The notes beneath the pieces are model-generated. The model ran no database searches, was not told the DNA's origin, and worked only from the letters and a program-made list of their open reading frames with translations. Source: Accumulibacter sp. (GTDB lineage Bacteria > Pseudomonadota > Gammaproteobacteria > Burkholderiales > Rhodocyclaceae). Taken from it: DNA of 64,000 nucleotides. Below are positions 17,984-23,262 of this stretch, in pieces (within the stretch, counting starts at the first letter, position 1; each line of letters opens with the position of its first letter). A program made the position numbers and the translations under genes. The stretch is from the NCBI RefSeq assembly GCF_023806625.1, contig NZ_JAMTDX010000072.1, forward strand, positions 44,137 through 108,136. Reading direction: 5' to 3'.

Positions 17984-19057
17984 CTAATAGACCAGGCGGG
18001 CAAGGTTTCGGCCGTCGACATGAATGCCCACTTTCCCCGCCCCGCTTGATGGAGCAGGCACCGCTTCGCCTACCGGAAGTGACTTGGGCATGCGCAGGGA
18101 GGTGACGGGGTCGAGGCCCGGTGGCGGTGTTTGGTCATGTCCAGACGTCGTCATGCGCGGCGCGCGGCCGATGCAGCGCCGATTGTCGGCGGCTGCGCCG
18201 GCGTCCCCAAACGGTGTCCCCGAGGCCGCAGCCCACCGCCCACCACCGAAAGGCACCACCCGCAATGGGAAGGCGCCCGTCCGACGGACGCCGAGGGCGC
18301 GCGGCTGGATGGTTCCCCGCGCGCCCCGTTCCCCCGTCGCCGCATGGCAGCCGTAGCTGTCGCAGGCCCCGTCGGTCGAAACTTGCGAGACGTCCCTGTC
18401 GACCTGGCCGAGCGGCCCCGGCAGGACTTTGCTGTCCCCCGAAGCGGCGGTAGTCCCTTCGATGCCGATGATGTTCTTGCCAGCCTCACCGACTGCGAGA
18501 CGAAGCTTGCGCCAGGTGCAACGTTCGCGCACCCCGTGCTGACCCACTGTCCCACGGTCGGTTGTGCACAGTCGACCGCTTGCAGCGGCGGGAAGCAGTG
18601 CTTCCCGAGACCCCGCTTTCGCCCACTGGCCCTCGCCGAAAATCTTCAGCGCCGTCGAATCGACGACCCCATACGTCGGACCCCTGCGCGGGCTCCGCGC
18701 AATGTTCACCGAAAGCTGCGCGGCCCGTCGCGACAGGTGCGTGTGGGCCGGCACCGACAAGTCGAGTTGCGCGAGCCGCATCAGCGACTTCGCCAGCCCT
18801 TCCGTCGCCCACCAAGGCAACGGCAACAGCTCCTCGATCGTCAGACACGTCAGGATCAAGGTCTTCGAACACGCGGCGGGCTTGCCGACGCCCCCTGGCA
18901 GCAGCGCTGTCCACTGCTGCCGAATGCTCGCTTCCTCGAACCAGAGCGTCAGATTGTCCCGATTGACCAGCGCCCGGTGGTAGCCCGACCAACTGTTCAC
19001 ACGATAGCGCTGCCCGACGCCTACCTCGACTCTGTCCGGCTTCACCCGCATCGCCAC
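17984..19057 (-). pseudogene. Decayed IS5-family transposase
   Basis: The N-terminal two thirds match IS5-family transposases: RYRVNSWSGYHRALVNRD, then LTCLTIEELLPLPWWATEGL, then the first catalytic block YGVVDSTALKIFGEGQW and a second block VSTDGACDSYGCH where the family has DGAYD. After about residue 255 the frame loses family similarity. The third catalytic block (normally a SLAE-type motif) is not seen in frame, although a C-terminal vestige (DPVTSLRMPKSLPVG) reappears. It is therefore probably inactivated by indels. It lies directly upstream of the reductase-methyltransferase gene and marks one side of the mobile patch. Confidence 0.72.
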
Positions 19058-19325: not shown

Positions 19326-19345
19326 TGTCGAAAAATTTTACACAG
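19326..19345 (+). promoter_or_regulatory. Upstream activating element shared by both PEP-CTERM genes (copy 1)
   Basis: The sequence TGTCGAAAAATTTTACACAG is identical over 20 bases to 21968-21987. It has dyad character (TGT...AAAATTTT...ACA), as expected for a dimeric activator site. It begins 81 bp upstream of the -24 element at 19407. Position and partner promoter suggest an enhancer for a sigma-54 activator, plausibly a PrsR-like regulator as described for PEP-CTERM genes in Zoogloea. The regulator itself is not in the window. Confidence 0.8.
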
Positions 19346-19406
19346 TGCCAACGGGGTCATCGGGACAGGCATCGTAAGCCTCTGTTTTTATGCCCTTCGA
19401 TGCTTT

Positions 19407-19422
19407 TGGCACGGGGCTTGCT
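19407..19422 (+). promoter_or_regulatory. Sigma-54 (-24/-12) promoter of PEP-CTERM gene 1
   Basis: TGGCACG, four bases, TTGCT matches the RpoN consensus TGGCACG-N4-TTGCW exactly. The expected start of transcription is about 10-12 bases after the -12 GC, near 19433, leaving a leader of about 40 nt. Confidence 0.9.
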
Positions 19423-19472
19423 TAGTGTCTGCTGCCAGCACATCGCAGGCTCACTTTTAAGAGGAAACAGAC

Positions 19473-20333
19473 ATGAACTCTATCAAGAAACTGGCTGCGG
19501 AATTGGGAGCCGTGGGTCTGCTCGCTGTGGCAGCACCGGTTCTTGCCTCACCCCAGCTGACCTTCACGACGGCCAACTACGGTACGCAGAGCGTCGATCC
19601 GTTCGGCGGGTTCGACTGGGACTCGGCCGGAACGGCGGTCTCCAGCGGTTACGACGTTACCAAGGACTTCAACGTCATCACGACGTACTACTGGGCTTCC
19701 GCGGTTGGGTTGAAGGACAAGCTCGGCAATACCTTCTCGACCCCGGGCATTACCCCTCCCCCTGGATCGCCGACCGGGTGGGAGTTCACGATCCGCGCGA
19801 CCATCACGGAGACCAACTTCTGCCTGTTCCGTCCGGGCGGTCCGGGCACGCCTTGCGCGGTGGAGTCGTTCTCTCCGCAAGCCGGTTCCTGGGATATCTA
19901 CTTCGATCCTCTGGCCAATGCCAACCAGGTGACCGGGGCGGGTATCACTAACGGCACGAAGATTCTCTCCGGTAACGTCTCACCCGCACTGATCGGCGGG
20001 ACTTTCTCCGCGGACGCACTCGGCGGATCTGGCGCGTTCAACTTTTTTGGCAACGTTACCTGGGCGGACCCGGCTTACTTCGACAACACGGGCTATCTGG
20101 TCCTGACCAATGCCATTGCAACCCTGCAGAACGGTAACAGGGTGACGGGCTGGAATTCACCGACATCCATGCCGGATGCGAATGGCCAAACGCAGGCCCT
20201 GCCGGGAGACGTGAGTGTTTATACCACGTTCCAGGCCGACGGCAACCAGAGCTTCGTTCCCGAGCCCGGTTCGCTGGCGCTCATCGGCCTCGGGCTGATC
20301 GGTCTGGTGGGCAGCGCTCGCCGCCGCAGCTGA
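19473..20333 (+). CDS. PEP-CTERM sorting-domain secreted protein
   Basis: A 286-residue exported protein. A signal peptide (AVGLLAVAAPVLA, cleavage near residue 26) precedes a Gly/Ser/Asn/Thr-rich body of no recognised enzyme family with a single possible Cys pair (FCLFRP and TPCAVE). The C-terminus is a classic PEP-CTERM signal: VPEPGSLALIGLGLIGLV followed by basic residues (SARRRS). Such proteins are recognised by exosortase and released to the surface or exopolysaccharide matrix. The ATG at 19473 has GAGG 9 nt upstream. It is the only gene between its sigma-54 promoter and a strong terminator, so it is monocistronic. The gene for the exosortase is not in the window. Confidence 0.93.
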   Translation: MNSIKKLAAELGAVGLLAVAAPVLASPQLTFTTANYGTQSVDPFGGFDWDSAGTAVSSGYDVTKDFNVITTYYWASAVGLKDKLGNTFSTPGITPPPGSPTGWEFTIRATITETNFCLFRPGGPGTPCAVESFSPQAGSWDIYFDPLANANQVTGAGITNGTKILSGNVSPALIGGTFSADALGGSGAFNFFGNVTWADPAYFDNTGYLVLTNAIATLQNGNRVTGWNSPTSMPDANGQTQALPGDVSVYTTFQADGNQSFVPEPGSLALIGLGLIGLVGSARRRS

Positions 20334-20354
20334 CCGGATAGTCGCATCGGTTCA

Positions 20355-20383
20355 GAGGGGCCGGCTTCCGCAGCCGGCCCCTC
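20355..20383. terminator. Strong stem-loop after PEP-CTERM gene 1
   Basis: A perfect 12-bp GC-rich stem (GAGGGGCCGGCT / AGCCGGCCCCTC, 5-nt loop) followed by GTTGTTCGTT. It lies 21 bp after the PEP-CTERM stop and just beyond the convergent glycosyltransferase stop, so it could serve both. Confidence 0.8.
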
Positions 20384-20392
20384 GTTGTTCGT

Positions 20393-21637
20393 TTACGGAC
20401 GTGCGACCGGGATTCGTGGGGATCGGACGATCGACAATGCCTCGCGGAATCGCTCGTCGGCCCGGTACACGCTGAACCACTGGCGCACCTTCGCCGCTCC
20501 AAGCGCGAACGAGGGCTCGCCAAGCAGTCTCTCCACTTTGCTCCGGACGCGCTGGACCGTCACCTGATCGGCACGCAGCGCCAGACCCGCTCCGGAGCGG
20601 GTGATGAAGTGCATGTTGCGCAGTTGATCGAGGTTGGCGGGGATTCCCAGGACTGGCGTGCCCTGCTGCAACGCCTGATGCACCGCCGGACTGCCGCCAT
20701 TGCAGACGACGACGCGTGAGATCGCCGCCATCCGATCCCCCGGAAGCATCCCAGGAATGCTGAAGTCGCCGGCATGGAGGTCCGCTTCGCGCAGTAGATC
20801 TGCCGATCCGGAGGCGACCACCCGGCATCCTGCAGCGACGGCTCCCTTGACCACTTCACCCAGGAGGCGAGAGTCTCCGGAACTGCCGAGCGAGACGAAG
20901 GCCAGTGGCCGCTCGTCGTTCGTACCGGTCAGGCCAGAGGGCAAGGGACCATCCGGAGCCCAGGTGACCGGGCCGATGTAGACGTAGCGCCCCGGTTGCC
21001 CGGCATCGGCGGTGGGAACGAGTTCCGGCACGTCGGCGAACAGCGTCACGTCTCCCTCGGTGAACACTCGCGTCAGATCGAAGCCGAGCGACGGCATCCC
21101 GTGGCGACGACGCAACCGGTGCATCGGCAGGCTGTGCTGCGTGAAAATCAGCGGGCGCAGCAGTTCGAAGACGCGGTTCGAAAAGCCGACCCCGAAGAGT
21201 CGGGTCGCCGCATGGACCGGGACCTCGAAAGGACCCTGCGCCAGAGGGCTCCAGTAGGCGTTGGAAATCGCCAGATAGGGAACTCCGGAGAGACGAGCGC
21301 TGACCGCGAGCGACAGGCGGAAGTCGCCGACGATGATCTCGGGACGGGCGTGTTCGATCACGCGCAGGTCATCCTCGACGTAGCGCTCGAGTACGTCGTA
21401 GGGAAACACCGGGCGGCCAGCGTCCACGGCAGCGAGATAAGCGCGGGTGCCGATGCACCGGAGATCATGAACTTCCAGGCCGGCAGCATCGACATGGCTG
21501 CGGAAATCGGCACCGGTGGCAAAGGTCACCTGATACTCGCCCGGATCGAGGCTTCGCGCGAGCACGAGCGGCCGAACGACATGCGCCAGAGTCGCCGGTT
21601 CGGCGAAAAAGACGATGCGCTGGCGCCGGTCGGTCAT
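20393..21637 (-). CDS. UDP-glycosyltransferase-like GT1-family protein
   Basis: A 414-residue glycosyltransferase of GT-B fold. The N-terminal acceptor domain has AEPATLAHVVRPLVLARSL. The C-terminal donor-binding region has FVSLGSSGDSRLLGEVV and CNGGSPAVHQALQQGTPVLG followed by NLDQLRN, the positions of the UGT/MGT signature. It probably transfers an activated sugar to a lipid or small-molecule acceptor. The ATG at 21637 follows GGGAG by 9 nt; a longer upstream frame lacks this. It is transcribed toward PEP-CTERM gene 1 and away from PEP-CTERM gene 2, between the two. A link to matrix sugar decoration is inference. Confidence 0.87.
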   Translation of the reverse strand: MTDRRQRIVFFAEPATLAHVVRPLVLARSLDPGEYQVTFATGADFRSHVDAAGLEVHDLRCIGTRAYLAAVDAGRPVFPYDVLERYVEDDLRVIEHARPEIIVGDFRLSLAVSARLSGVPYLAISNAYWSPLAQGPFEVPVHAATRLFGVGFSNRVFELLRPLIFTQHSLPMHRLRRRHGMPSLGFDLTRVFTEGDVTLFADVPELVPTADAGQPGRYVYIGPVTWAPDGPLPSGLTGTNDERPLAFVSLGSSGDSRLLGEVVKGAVAAGCRVVASGSADLLREADLHAGDFSIPGMLPGDRMAAISRVVVCNGGSPAVHQALQQGTPVLGIPANLDQLRNMHFITRSGAGLALRADQVTVQRVRSKVERLLGEPSFALGAAKVRQWFSVYRADERFREALSIVRSPRIPVARP

Positions 21638-21967
21638 CGACTTGCTCCCGGCAGAGGAAGGTACACTGACCGAACGCCCCGATCGATCGCGCCCGGCGGG
21701 GGGCGCCCGACGAGCAATGCCCGCTCGCCGGATGAGCCGGGAAGGCAGCGGTTTCCCGCTTGACGGGGCAGGTTTTCGGCGCAACCGATCACCGCTGAAT
21801 CGTACAGCAAAAACCGGTTCCGACGCGCGAAAAGCTGTTGCCACCGGCTTGGCCGCATTCCGGCCCGCGAGGGATCCGCCTCGCGGGGAGCATCGGCCGA
21901 TACCTCCCGGCGCACCGGCGTGGCCGAAGCATGGCCGGGCCGACCACCGACCCGTTCGACCATCCGT

Positions 21968-21987
21968 TGTCGAAAAATTTTACACAG
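21968..21987 (+). promoter_or_regulatory. Upstream activating element shared by both PEP-CTERM genes (copy 2)
   Basis: Identical over 20 bases to 19326-19345 and placed 80 bp before the -24 element at 22048, one base different from copy 1. Flanks outside the 20 bases diverge within a few nucleotides, so this is not a general duplication of the region. Confidence 0.8.
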
Positions 21988-22047
21988 CACCGTAGAAGGG
22001 GCTCTCGCTCATTTCAAGGACTATTAAGATCAGAGACTTAGCGAAGC

Positions 22048-22063
22048 GTGCATGGTTTTTGCT
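22048..22063 (+). promoter_or_regulatory. Sigma-54-like promoter of PEP-CTERM gene 2
   Basis: GTGCATG, four bases, TTGCT. The -12 block is perfect and the spacing is exact, but the -24 block departs from TGGCACG at three positions, including the first G of the GG pair. The spacing to the 20-bp element supports it. It would give a leader of roughly 110 nt. Confidence 0.65.
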
Positions 22064-22182: not shown

Positions 22183-23262
22183 ATGAAGAAACTCTTTGGC
22201 GTACTTGCGCTGAGCGCCTCGCTGGCTTCGCCGCTTTCGGCCGAGGCTGCACTGCAGCAGCTGTCGAATCTGTTCGTCTTCGGCGACAGCCTCTCGGATG
22301 GCGGCAATAGTGGGTTGATCAGCCAGTCGGTCGTGCCGGGACTGGTCTACCCGCCGCCGCCCTATTGGAACGGGCAGTATTCGAACGGCCCGGTTGCCGT
22401 CGAGTACCTCTGGAATCTCTATAATCCGGGCGACAAGAGCTTCAAGCCCTCGCTGGCCGGCGGCACGAACTACGCGGTCGGGGGCGCGACCACCGGCTCG
22501 ACCAGCTTCAACTCGGTCTCGTCGACGGTTCCGCCATTCCTGCAACCCGCGTACGTCGGGACGAGCAATGCCGGCCAGCTGTTCGGTGCCAGTCCCGGTT
22601 TTCCCGGCTTTTTCGCAAATCAACCGGCGTTTGACCCGGCGACTTCACTGTTTACCGTCTGGCTGTTTCCGAACGACGTCTTCAACTGGGCGACAACCGG
22701 AACCTTGCCCGGCGCAGCAGTGCCAGGCTGCGGTGCTCCGGTGAACGGAAATGATGCGGCTGCACTGATCACCAACGGCGTGCAGAACATCGTCTGCACC
22801 GTCCTCGCGCTCGAGGCAGCCGGGGCGCAGCACTTCCTGGTGCCAAACCTCCCCGACCTCGGAAGCATCCCGGGAGCCGGGCCGGGGGGCGACCCCGCCT
22901 ATACCGCTCTTTCGGCCGCCTTCAACGCCGCGCTGGCTGGCGCGCTGACGCCTCTGGACAACGCGGACCCGTCGATCGAGATCACCCAGTTCGATACCTT
23001 CGGGCTGCTGCACAGTGTCCAGGCGAATCCGGGTGCCTACGGCTTCACCAACGCGACCGACGCGTGCCTGTACGACCCGACCTGCGTCAGCGACCCGACG
23101 ATGTGGAACCAGTACGTGTTCTGGGATGAAGTTCATCCGACGACCCGGGCGCACCAGATCATCGGCAACGCCTTCTACGCCGCCGTTCCCGAACCGACGA
23201 GTCTTTCGCTGCTGGCGCTGAGCCTGTTCGCCGTCTTCGGCGTCCAGCGCCGTCGTTCCTGA
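22183..23262 (+). CDS. Secreted SGNH/GDSL esterase with PEP-CTERM anchor
   Basis: A 359-residue exported hydrolase. The signal peptide ends near AEAA (residue 22). The SGNH blocks are LFVFGDSLSDGGNSG (nucleophile Ser36), a Gly-Gly block TNYAVGGATTG, a block III LFPNDVFNW with Asn, and DEVHPTTRAHQII with the Asp and His. This matches the lipase/acylhydrolase subfamily of extracellular GDSL enzymes. The C-terminus VPEPTSLSLLALSLFAVFG plus QRRRS is an exosortase signal. GGGAGGGG lies about 8 nt before ATG 22183; the reading frame is open further upstream but the upstream start would lie in the promoter. It is a surface or matrix enzyme, possibly acting on lipid or polyester. Substrate is unproven. 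Confidence 0.92.
   Translation: MKKLFGVLALSASLASPLSAEAALQQLSNLFVFGDSLSDGGNSGLISQSVVPGLVYPPPPYWNGQYSNGPVAVEYLWNLYNPGDKSFKPSLAGGTNYAVGGATTGSTSFNSVSSTVPPFLQPAYVGTSNAGQLFGASPGFPGFFANQPAFDPATSLFTVWLFPNDVFNWATTGTLPGAAVPGCGAPVNGNDAAALITNGVQNIVCTVLALEAAGAQHFLVPNLPDLGSIPGAGPGGDPAYTALSAAFNAALAGALTPLDNADPSIEITQFDTFGLLHSVQANPGAYGFTNATDACLYDPTCVSDPTMWNQYVFWDEVHPTTRAHQIIGNAFYAAVPEPTSLSLLALSLFAVFGVQRRRS

Follow-up and report, generated by a model that had tools for sequence, protein, structure and literature searches.

Haft et al. (2006) described, upstream of 99 of 167 proteobacterial PEP-CTERM genes, a composite site that consists of a 17-nucleotide (nt) motif ending in TTTACA (motif 1) followed by a 17-nt sigma-54 motif, with a spacer of 62.8 nt on average (standard deviation 10.6, range 32–92); the phylogenetic profile of the site matches PrsR, PrsK and PrsT, of which PrsR is the proposed activator (PMC1569441). 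In Zoogloea, a PEP-CTERM gene has been reported to be under the control of RpoN and PrsK-PrsR (PMC9012009). For pepA of Aquincola tertiaricarbonis, primer extension located the transcription start, and transcription was found to be RpoN1-dependent, with promoter boxes TGGCAC and CTGCTT (PMC9850573). In this article, we analyze a stretch of 64,000 nt from an Accumulibacter genome (assembly GCF_023806625.1, contig NZ_JAMTDX010000072.1, positions 44,137 to 108,136), hereafter the window, in which the same sequence of 20 base pairs (bp) occurs twice, each time ahead of a sigma-54-like element and a PEP-CTERM gene. We propose, with a probability of about 0.92, that each 20-mer is a PrsR enhancer of a sigma-54 PEP-CTERM promoter of the type known from Haft et al., and that the spacing between enhancer and promoter is helically phased.

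The phenomenon of quantised loop lengths has precedents, since lac repressor loop assays found 11 bp per turn as the helical repeat in vivo (PMC8501960), an NtrC system with two sites has been described as face-of-the-helix dependent (PMC7408454), and the loop lengths of 61 Vibrio qrr enhancers lie ~11 bp apart (PMC4740811). A survey of sigma-54 promoters in Clostridiales reports distances of 100–250 bp and does not mention such steps in its available passages (PMC6615313). No report of helical phasing of PrsR promoters was found in the open-licence literature searched.

The proposed mechanism is as follows. Each 20-mer holds the PrsR box (motif 1 of Haft et al.), a predicted binding site of PrsR, a response regulator of the NtrC type that PrsK would activate. 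Bound ~100 bp upstream of the start, PrsR would loop the short spacer and touch the RNA polymerase-sigma-54 complex waiting on the -24/-12 element, upon which the PEP-CTERM gene would be transcribed. Because the loop would be short, it would impose a fixed rotational angle between box and promoter, and natural spacers would therefore be expected near 41, 52, 63, 74, 85 and 96 bp.

Results

Two probable PEP-CTERM promoters in the window

An earlier note on this DNA had pointed out an identical 20-mer in two places, rapid divergence of the sequence around it, sigma-54-like elements 81 and 80 bp downstream, and a PEP-CTERM gene after each copy. The two copies of the 20-mer, TGTCGAAAAATTTTACACAG, are indeed exact (Table 1), with no other match in the window at up to three mismatches, and their flanks diverge immediately beyond the 20 bases. 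The chance expectation for such a repeated 20-mer is zero, none being found in 100 dinucleotide shuffles of the window. Both copies begin with TGTCGAAAAATTTTACA, a 17-nt motif ending in TTTACA, which agrees with Haft motif 1 as described in the published text.

The sigma-54-like elements begin 81 bp (copy 1) and 80 bp (copy 2) downstream of the start of the 20-mer, as claimed; the first matches the consensus perfectly, whereas the -24 box of the second turned out to be weak. The resulting spacers, measured up to the T of TGG (or the base in its place), fall inside the published 32–92 nt range; the publication may place motif 2 a base or two differently. All sigma-54 sites in our analysis are consensus matches, and the consensus alone is uninformative in the window, with 80 matches at up to three mismatches compared to 98 expected; the weight of a sigma-54-like element comes from its position relative to the box, not from its match to the consensus. 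Both genes are PEP-CTERM genes by PF07589 (29.1 and 23.2 bits, cut-off 20.7) and are also matched by TIGR02595 in the genome search. A protein search with the PepA-family protein of the window over a collection of genome contigs confirmed no relative.

The predicted PrsR box in the genome and in related genomes

The genome (genus Candidatus Accumulibacter, 4.09 megabases) encodes PrsR (740.2 bits, cut-off 502.6), PrsK (847.9, cut-off 300) and PrsT (941.0, cut-off 312.2), and their genes adjoin that of the PEP-CTERM system glycosyltransferase (515.6, cut-off 393.35) on contig C102. At up to three mismatches the 20-mer is found at five places genome-wide and the reversed pattern at none; the shorter pattern TGTCG-N6-TTTACA has 17 matches, again with none for its reverse. 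PEP-CTERM genes lie downstream of 11 of these 17 matches. A box on contig C51 precedes a further PEP-CTERM gene, one not listed by TIGR02595. Four matches (contigs C8, C62, C93 and C105, the gene call at C62 being uncertain) precede genes of other kinds and have a sigma-54-like site with 1–3 mismatches, and two (C14:36747 and C111) have no sigma-54-like site.

Starting from the genes instead, TIGR02595 identifies 21 PEP-CTERM loci in the genome, and 16 of them have a box together with a sigma-54-like site, defined here as at most three mismatches at 35–100 bp beyond the box. The box is an exact TGTC-N7-TTTACA at 13 loci and has one mismatch at three more (spacers 58, 97 and 74). The site on C51, where the gene frame was guessed, was missed by this test. 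The reversed box matches once at the 21 loci, without a sigma-54-like site. The earlier note had named genome-wide matches lacking enrichment near PEP-CTERM genes as the outcome that would count against it; the matches are enriched upstream of PEP-CTERM genes.

The composite pattern TGTC-N7-TTTACA-N52..82-TGG-N9-TGC was searched in 61 related genomes and is present in 39 of them, with 241 matches in sum compared to a single match of the reversed control. PrsR scores over the cut-off in 37 of the 61 genomes, where in most genomes the scoring covered only part of the first-look candidates, and all 37 carry the composite. By genus (34 genera), 11 have both, one has the composite only, none has PrsR only, and 22 have neither. 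Given the enrichment in the genome and a composite that tracks PrsR across genomes, we regard the reading offered by the earlier note as the best one: an enhancer with an RpoN promoter, belonging to a PEP-CTERM regulon. Whether the motif had been described was left open there: a motif with matching description, spacer and assignment to PrsK/PrsR/PrsT was already published in 2006 (PMC1569441).

Spacer lengths

Spacer lengths were taken from the listed places of three composite searches (150 of 241; 116, reversed control 1; 52, reversed control 2), which yield 291 distinct sites among the matches listed. The spacers of these sites form clusters with means of 52.0 (n=45), 63.4 (n=83), 74.0 (n=38), 85.4 (n=82) and 96.5 (n=28) bp, and five further listed sites have spacers of 39–42 bp. 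Between the clusters there are no spacers at 55–60, 77–80 or 89–92 bp and two at 67–70 bp. The best-period vector strength is 0.764, and none of 2000 uniform draws exceeded 0.23. The step between clusters, estimated from 276 of the 291 sites, is 11.08 bp (bootstrap 10.96–11.19), where the bootstrap treats the sites as independent and the 291 sites are phylogenetically redundant.

A better control is a class-level sample of 229 genomes, which covers one spacer range. The composite occurs in 68 of these genomes, with two matches of the reversed control, and the 138 sites among the matches listed come from 51 genomes besides that of the window, none of which contributed to the 291 sites. The phase windows (52–53, 61–66 and 71–76 bp) were taken from the genus data and comprise 14 of the 31 possible lengths, so that 45% of sites are expected in them; they contain 129 of the 138 listed sites and 48 of the 51 first-listed sites (one per genome). 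The spacing changes in steps of ~11 bases, or one DNA turn, and this is the addition of the present study to the known switch. Such quantised spacing fits looping with box and promoter on one face of the DNA. An A/T periodicity at 11 bp was unsupported in 60 PrsR spacers (power below the 99% shuffle level); the best period in these spacers was 12.25, and the signal was weaker without the last 35 nt.

Targets other than PEP-CTERM genes

The genes behind 60 composite sites were inspected, namely all sites listed for genomes G001, G004, G009, G010, G016, G022 and G025, and one of the seven of G003. PEP-CTERM genes stand behind 39 of them by pattern and behind four more (L127, L153, L157 and L158) by eye, with the variants P-x-P or SEP. 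The other genes found encode a small protein starting with MNILN (five sites), a CBS-domain protein (two), a small protein with an ALLRAAKKAA tail (two) and a LuxR-type regulator (one). Seven sites have no assigned gene; five of these (L150, L161, L167, L177 and L178) reach the end of the sequence retrieved around the site, and at two (L169 and L170) no gene is clear. The same four gene types stand behind sites in the genome of the window, on contigs C93 (MNILN), C105 (CBS), C112 (ALLRAAKKAA tail) and C8 (LuxR-type).

On C93 (locus L082), a PrsR box (C93:51682–51698) and a sigma-54-like site precede the gene of a conserved ~118-residue protein starting with MNILNNWK, which has no Pfam or NCBIfam match. 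Its structural model consists mostly of strands plus a helix (mean predicted local distance difference test score, pLDDT, 73.2) and has no match in the PDB at E <= 0.001. Among 24 further loci of this gene (23 titled Accumulibacter and one Pseudomonadota bacterium), the box lies upstream in 20, one of the remaining four having only 220 nt of upstream sequence, and the best sigma-54-like site (at most three mismatches) is at 64 bp once and at 71–75 bp 19 times. The strict composite with TGG is present in only 10 of the 24 loci because many carry TAG or another -24 variant.

On C8 (locus L066), a PrsR box (C8:1807–1823), followed at 63 bp by a sigma-54-like site, stands before a LuxR-type (GerE) regulator, as it also does in the relative L145, and through this target the regulon may have a second tier. 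On C105 (L070:3611–3810), a PrsR box and a sigma-54-like site at 63 bp are followed, ~60 nt past the expected start and before the CBS-domain gene, by a strong hairpin with a 10-bp stem and then a run of seven T, which may be a leader terminator or a small RNA, both unproven. A PrsR-driven small RNA was considered here and not adopted. The DNA matched three of the 61 genomes including its own, and the matches in the other two are confined to short segments (G003, box region; G005, hairpin stem). By the criteria of our script, no terminator is present in L128 and L144, two relatives in which a site precedes the CBS gene. The link of the C112-type protein to L071, L120 and L148 rests on the C-terminal tails, because the pattern for this protein matched none of the three.

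Table 1. Elements of the two promoters and neighbouring genes (positions in the window)
Feature	Position	Strand	Remarks
20-mer copy 1	19326..19345	+	first 17 bases (19326-19342) are the predicted PrsR box (Haft motif 1)
Spacer 1, 64 nt	19343..19406	+	within the 61-66 phase cluster
-24/-12 sigma-54-like element 1, TGGCACGGGGCTTGCT	19407..19422	+	0 mismatches to TGGCACG-N4-TTGCW
PepA-family (flocculation-associated) PEP-CTERM gene	19473..20333	+	NF033554 126.2 bits, cut-off 80; PF07589
20-mer copy 2	21968..21987	+	first 17 bases (21968-21984) are the predicted PrsR box
Spacer 2, 63 nt	21985..22047	+	within the 61-66 phase cluster
Weak -24/-12 sigma-54-like element 2, GTGCATGGTTTTTGCT	22048..22063	+	3 mismatches; -24 GG absent
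GDSL lipase-like protein with PEP-CTERM tail	22183..23262	+	PF00657 67.3 bits; PF07589 23.2 bits
DDE transposase-like gene	17984..19057	-	PF13737; adjoins the promoter region of the pepA-like gene on its upstream side
UDP-glycosyltransferase-like gene	20393..21637	-	on the opposite strand, between the two PEP-CTERM genes

Discussion

Several observations weigh against a PrsR-dependent, helically phased switch. Element 2 keeps the GC of the -12 box and has lost the GG of the -24 box; this weaker second promoter would be active as well. Five of the 21 PEP-CTERM loci have no pair of box and sigma-54-like site, and locus C58b, one of the 16 that do, has an out-of-phase spacer of 58 bp. Ten of the 291 listed sites lie outside the clusters (for one of these outliers, L123 at 69 bp, a further sigma-54 match lies in phase, at 97 bp), as do nine of the 138 listed class sites with respect to the phase windows. 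Finally, the composite occurs in two of the 24 genomes without PrsR over the cut-off, G006 and G041, whose best scores were 348.8 and 387.6 bits, still below the cut-off, when all PrsR candidates were rescored. G041 belongs to a different genus and is 96% complete; a divergent activator and a gap in the assembly are the candidate explanations.

These two genomes, together with several further proteins of the genome that match the PrsR model below the cut-off over most of its length, are what one would expect if the box were read by another NtrC-type activator and PrsR merely co-traveled with it. We consider this improbable, given that the genus table contains no genus with PrsR only and a single one with the composite only, that the phylogenetic profile of the site in Haft et al. 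singled out PrsR, PrsK and PrsT (PMC1569441), and that the assembly of G006 consists of 350 contigs with 7% contamination. It is least probable, indeed scarcely credible, that the 20-bp identity is a product of chance or a trace of local duplication without regulatory meaning. The copies do lie on the same strand and 2.6 kilobases apart, but their flanks and gene products differ, the chance expectation is zero, and similar sites are found at many unlinked genes of the genome and in other genera.

A further alternative accepts the site as proposed and attributes the spacer clusters to shared ancestry of a few promoters rather than to selection for helical phase. A single genus, with 28 genomes, supplies most of the 291 sites, so that orthologous promoters enter the count more than once. 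The same phase windows nevertheless recur in the 51 other genomes of the class, for the listed as well as the first-listed sites, several clusters are represented at different genes within the genome of the window itself, and at the promoter of the conserved MNILN gene the best sigma-54-like site is at 64 bp in one locus and at 71–75 bp in 19 others. Ancestry as the source of the clusters appears quite unlikely to us.

The regulon is likely to embody a helical ruler, in which the distance between enhancer and promoter is set in whole turns of ~11.1 bp across many families of the class, near the helical repeat reported for supercoiled bacterial DNA in loop assays, and it would thus be a large natural record of DNA torsion in loops in vivo. 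In Accumulibacter, the regulon would likewise include a recurring branch outside the PEP-CTERM genes, consisting of the uncharacterised ~118-residue protein, the LuxR-type regulator and the CBS-domain protein. Since these targets recur and include a regulator, PrsR may be connected to further circuits of Accumulibacter. The quantised spacer amounts to a quantitative rule for the regulon, and the phase can serve as an aid in telling genuine sigma-54 sites from chance matches. With the window, a known regulon of surface proteins gains two promoters; these proteins are linked to the formation of flocs and granules by wastewater bacteria. In the metaproteome of a granular Accumulibacter enrichment, one cluster of extracellular proteins had a PEP-CTERM protein as its most abundant member, and the discussion of that metaproteome connects PEP-CTERM proteins to granules and flocs (PMC12019908).

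Comparison with known systems

The Vibrio qrr enhancers, which act with LuxO and sigma-54, resemble the PrsR promoters in that their loop lengths are clustered ~11 bp apart; the qrr set consists of 61 enhancers from a single genus that carry a tandem LuxO site, and the A/T period of ~10.6 bp reported for the qrr loops (PMC4740811) was not reproduced in the PrsR spacers. The pepA promoter of Aquincola shares with the first promoter of the window a pepA-family PEP-CTERM gene, a TGGCAC -24 box and a predicted upstream enhancer, and differs in that its start was mapped and its rpoN1 dependence shown, whereas the window promoter is known here from its sequence (PMC9850573). Compared to the site of Haft et al. 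(2006), whose motif section does not name helical steps of the spacer (PMC1569441), nothing basic differs except the weak -24 box of copy 2, and the window agrees with it in motif length, 3' end, a spacer of ~63 nt, the sigma-54 motif, the PEP-CTERM genes downstream and the presence of PrsR, PrsK and PrsT.

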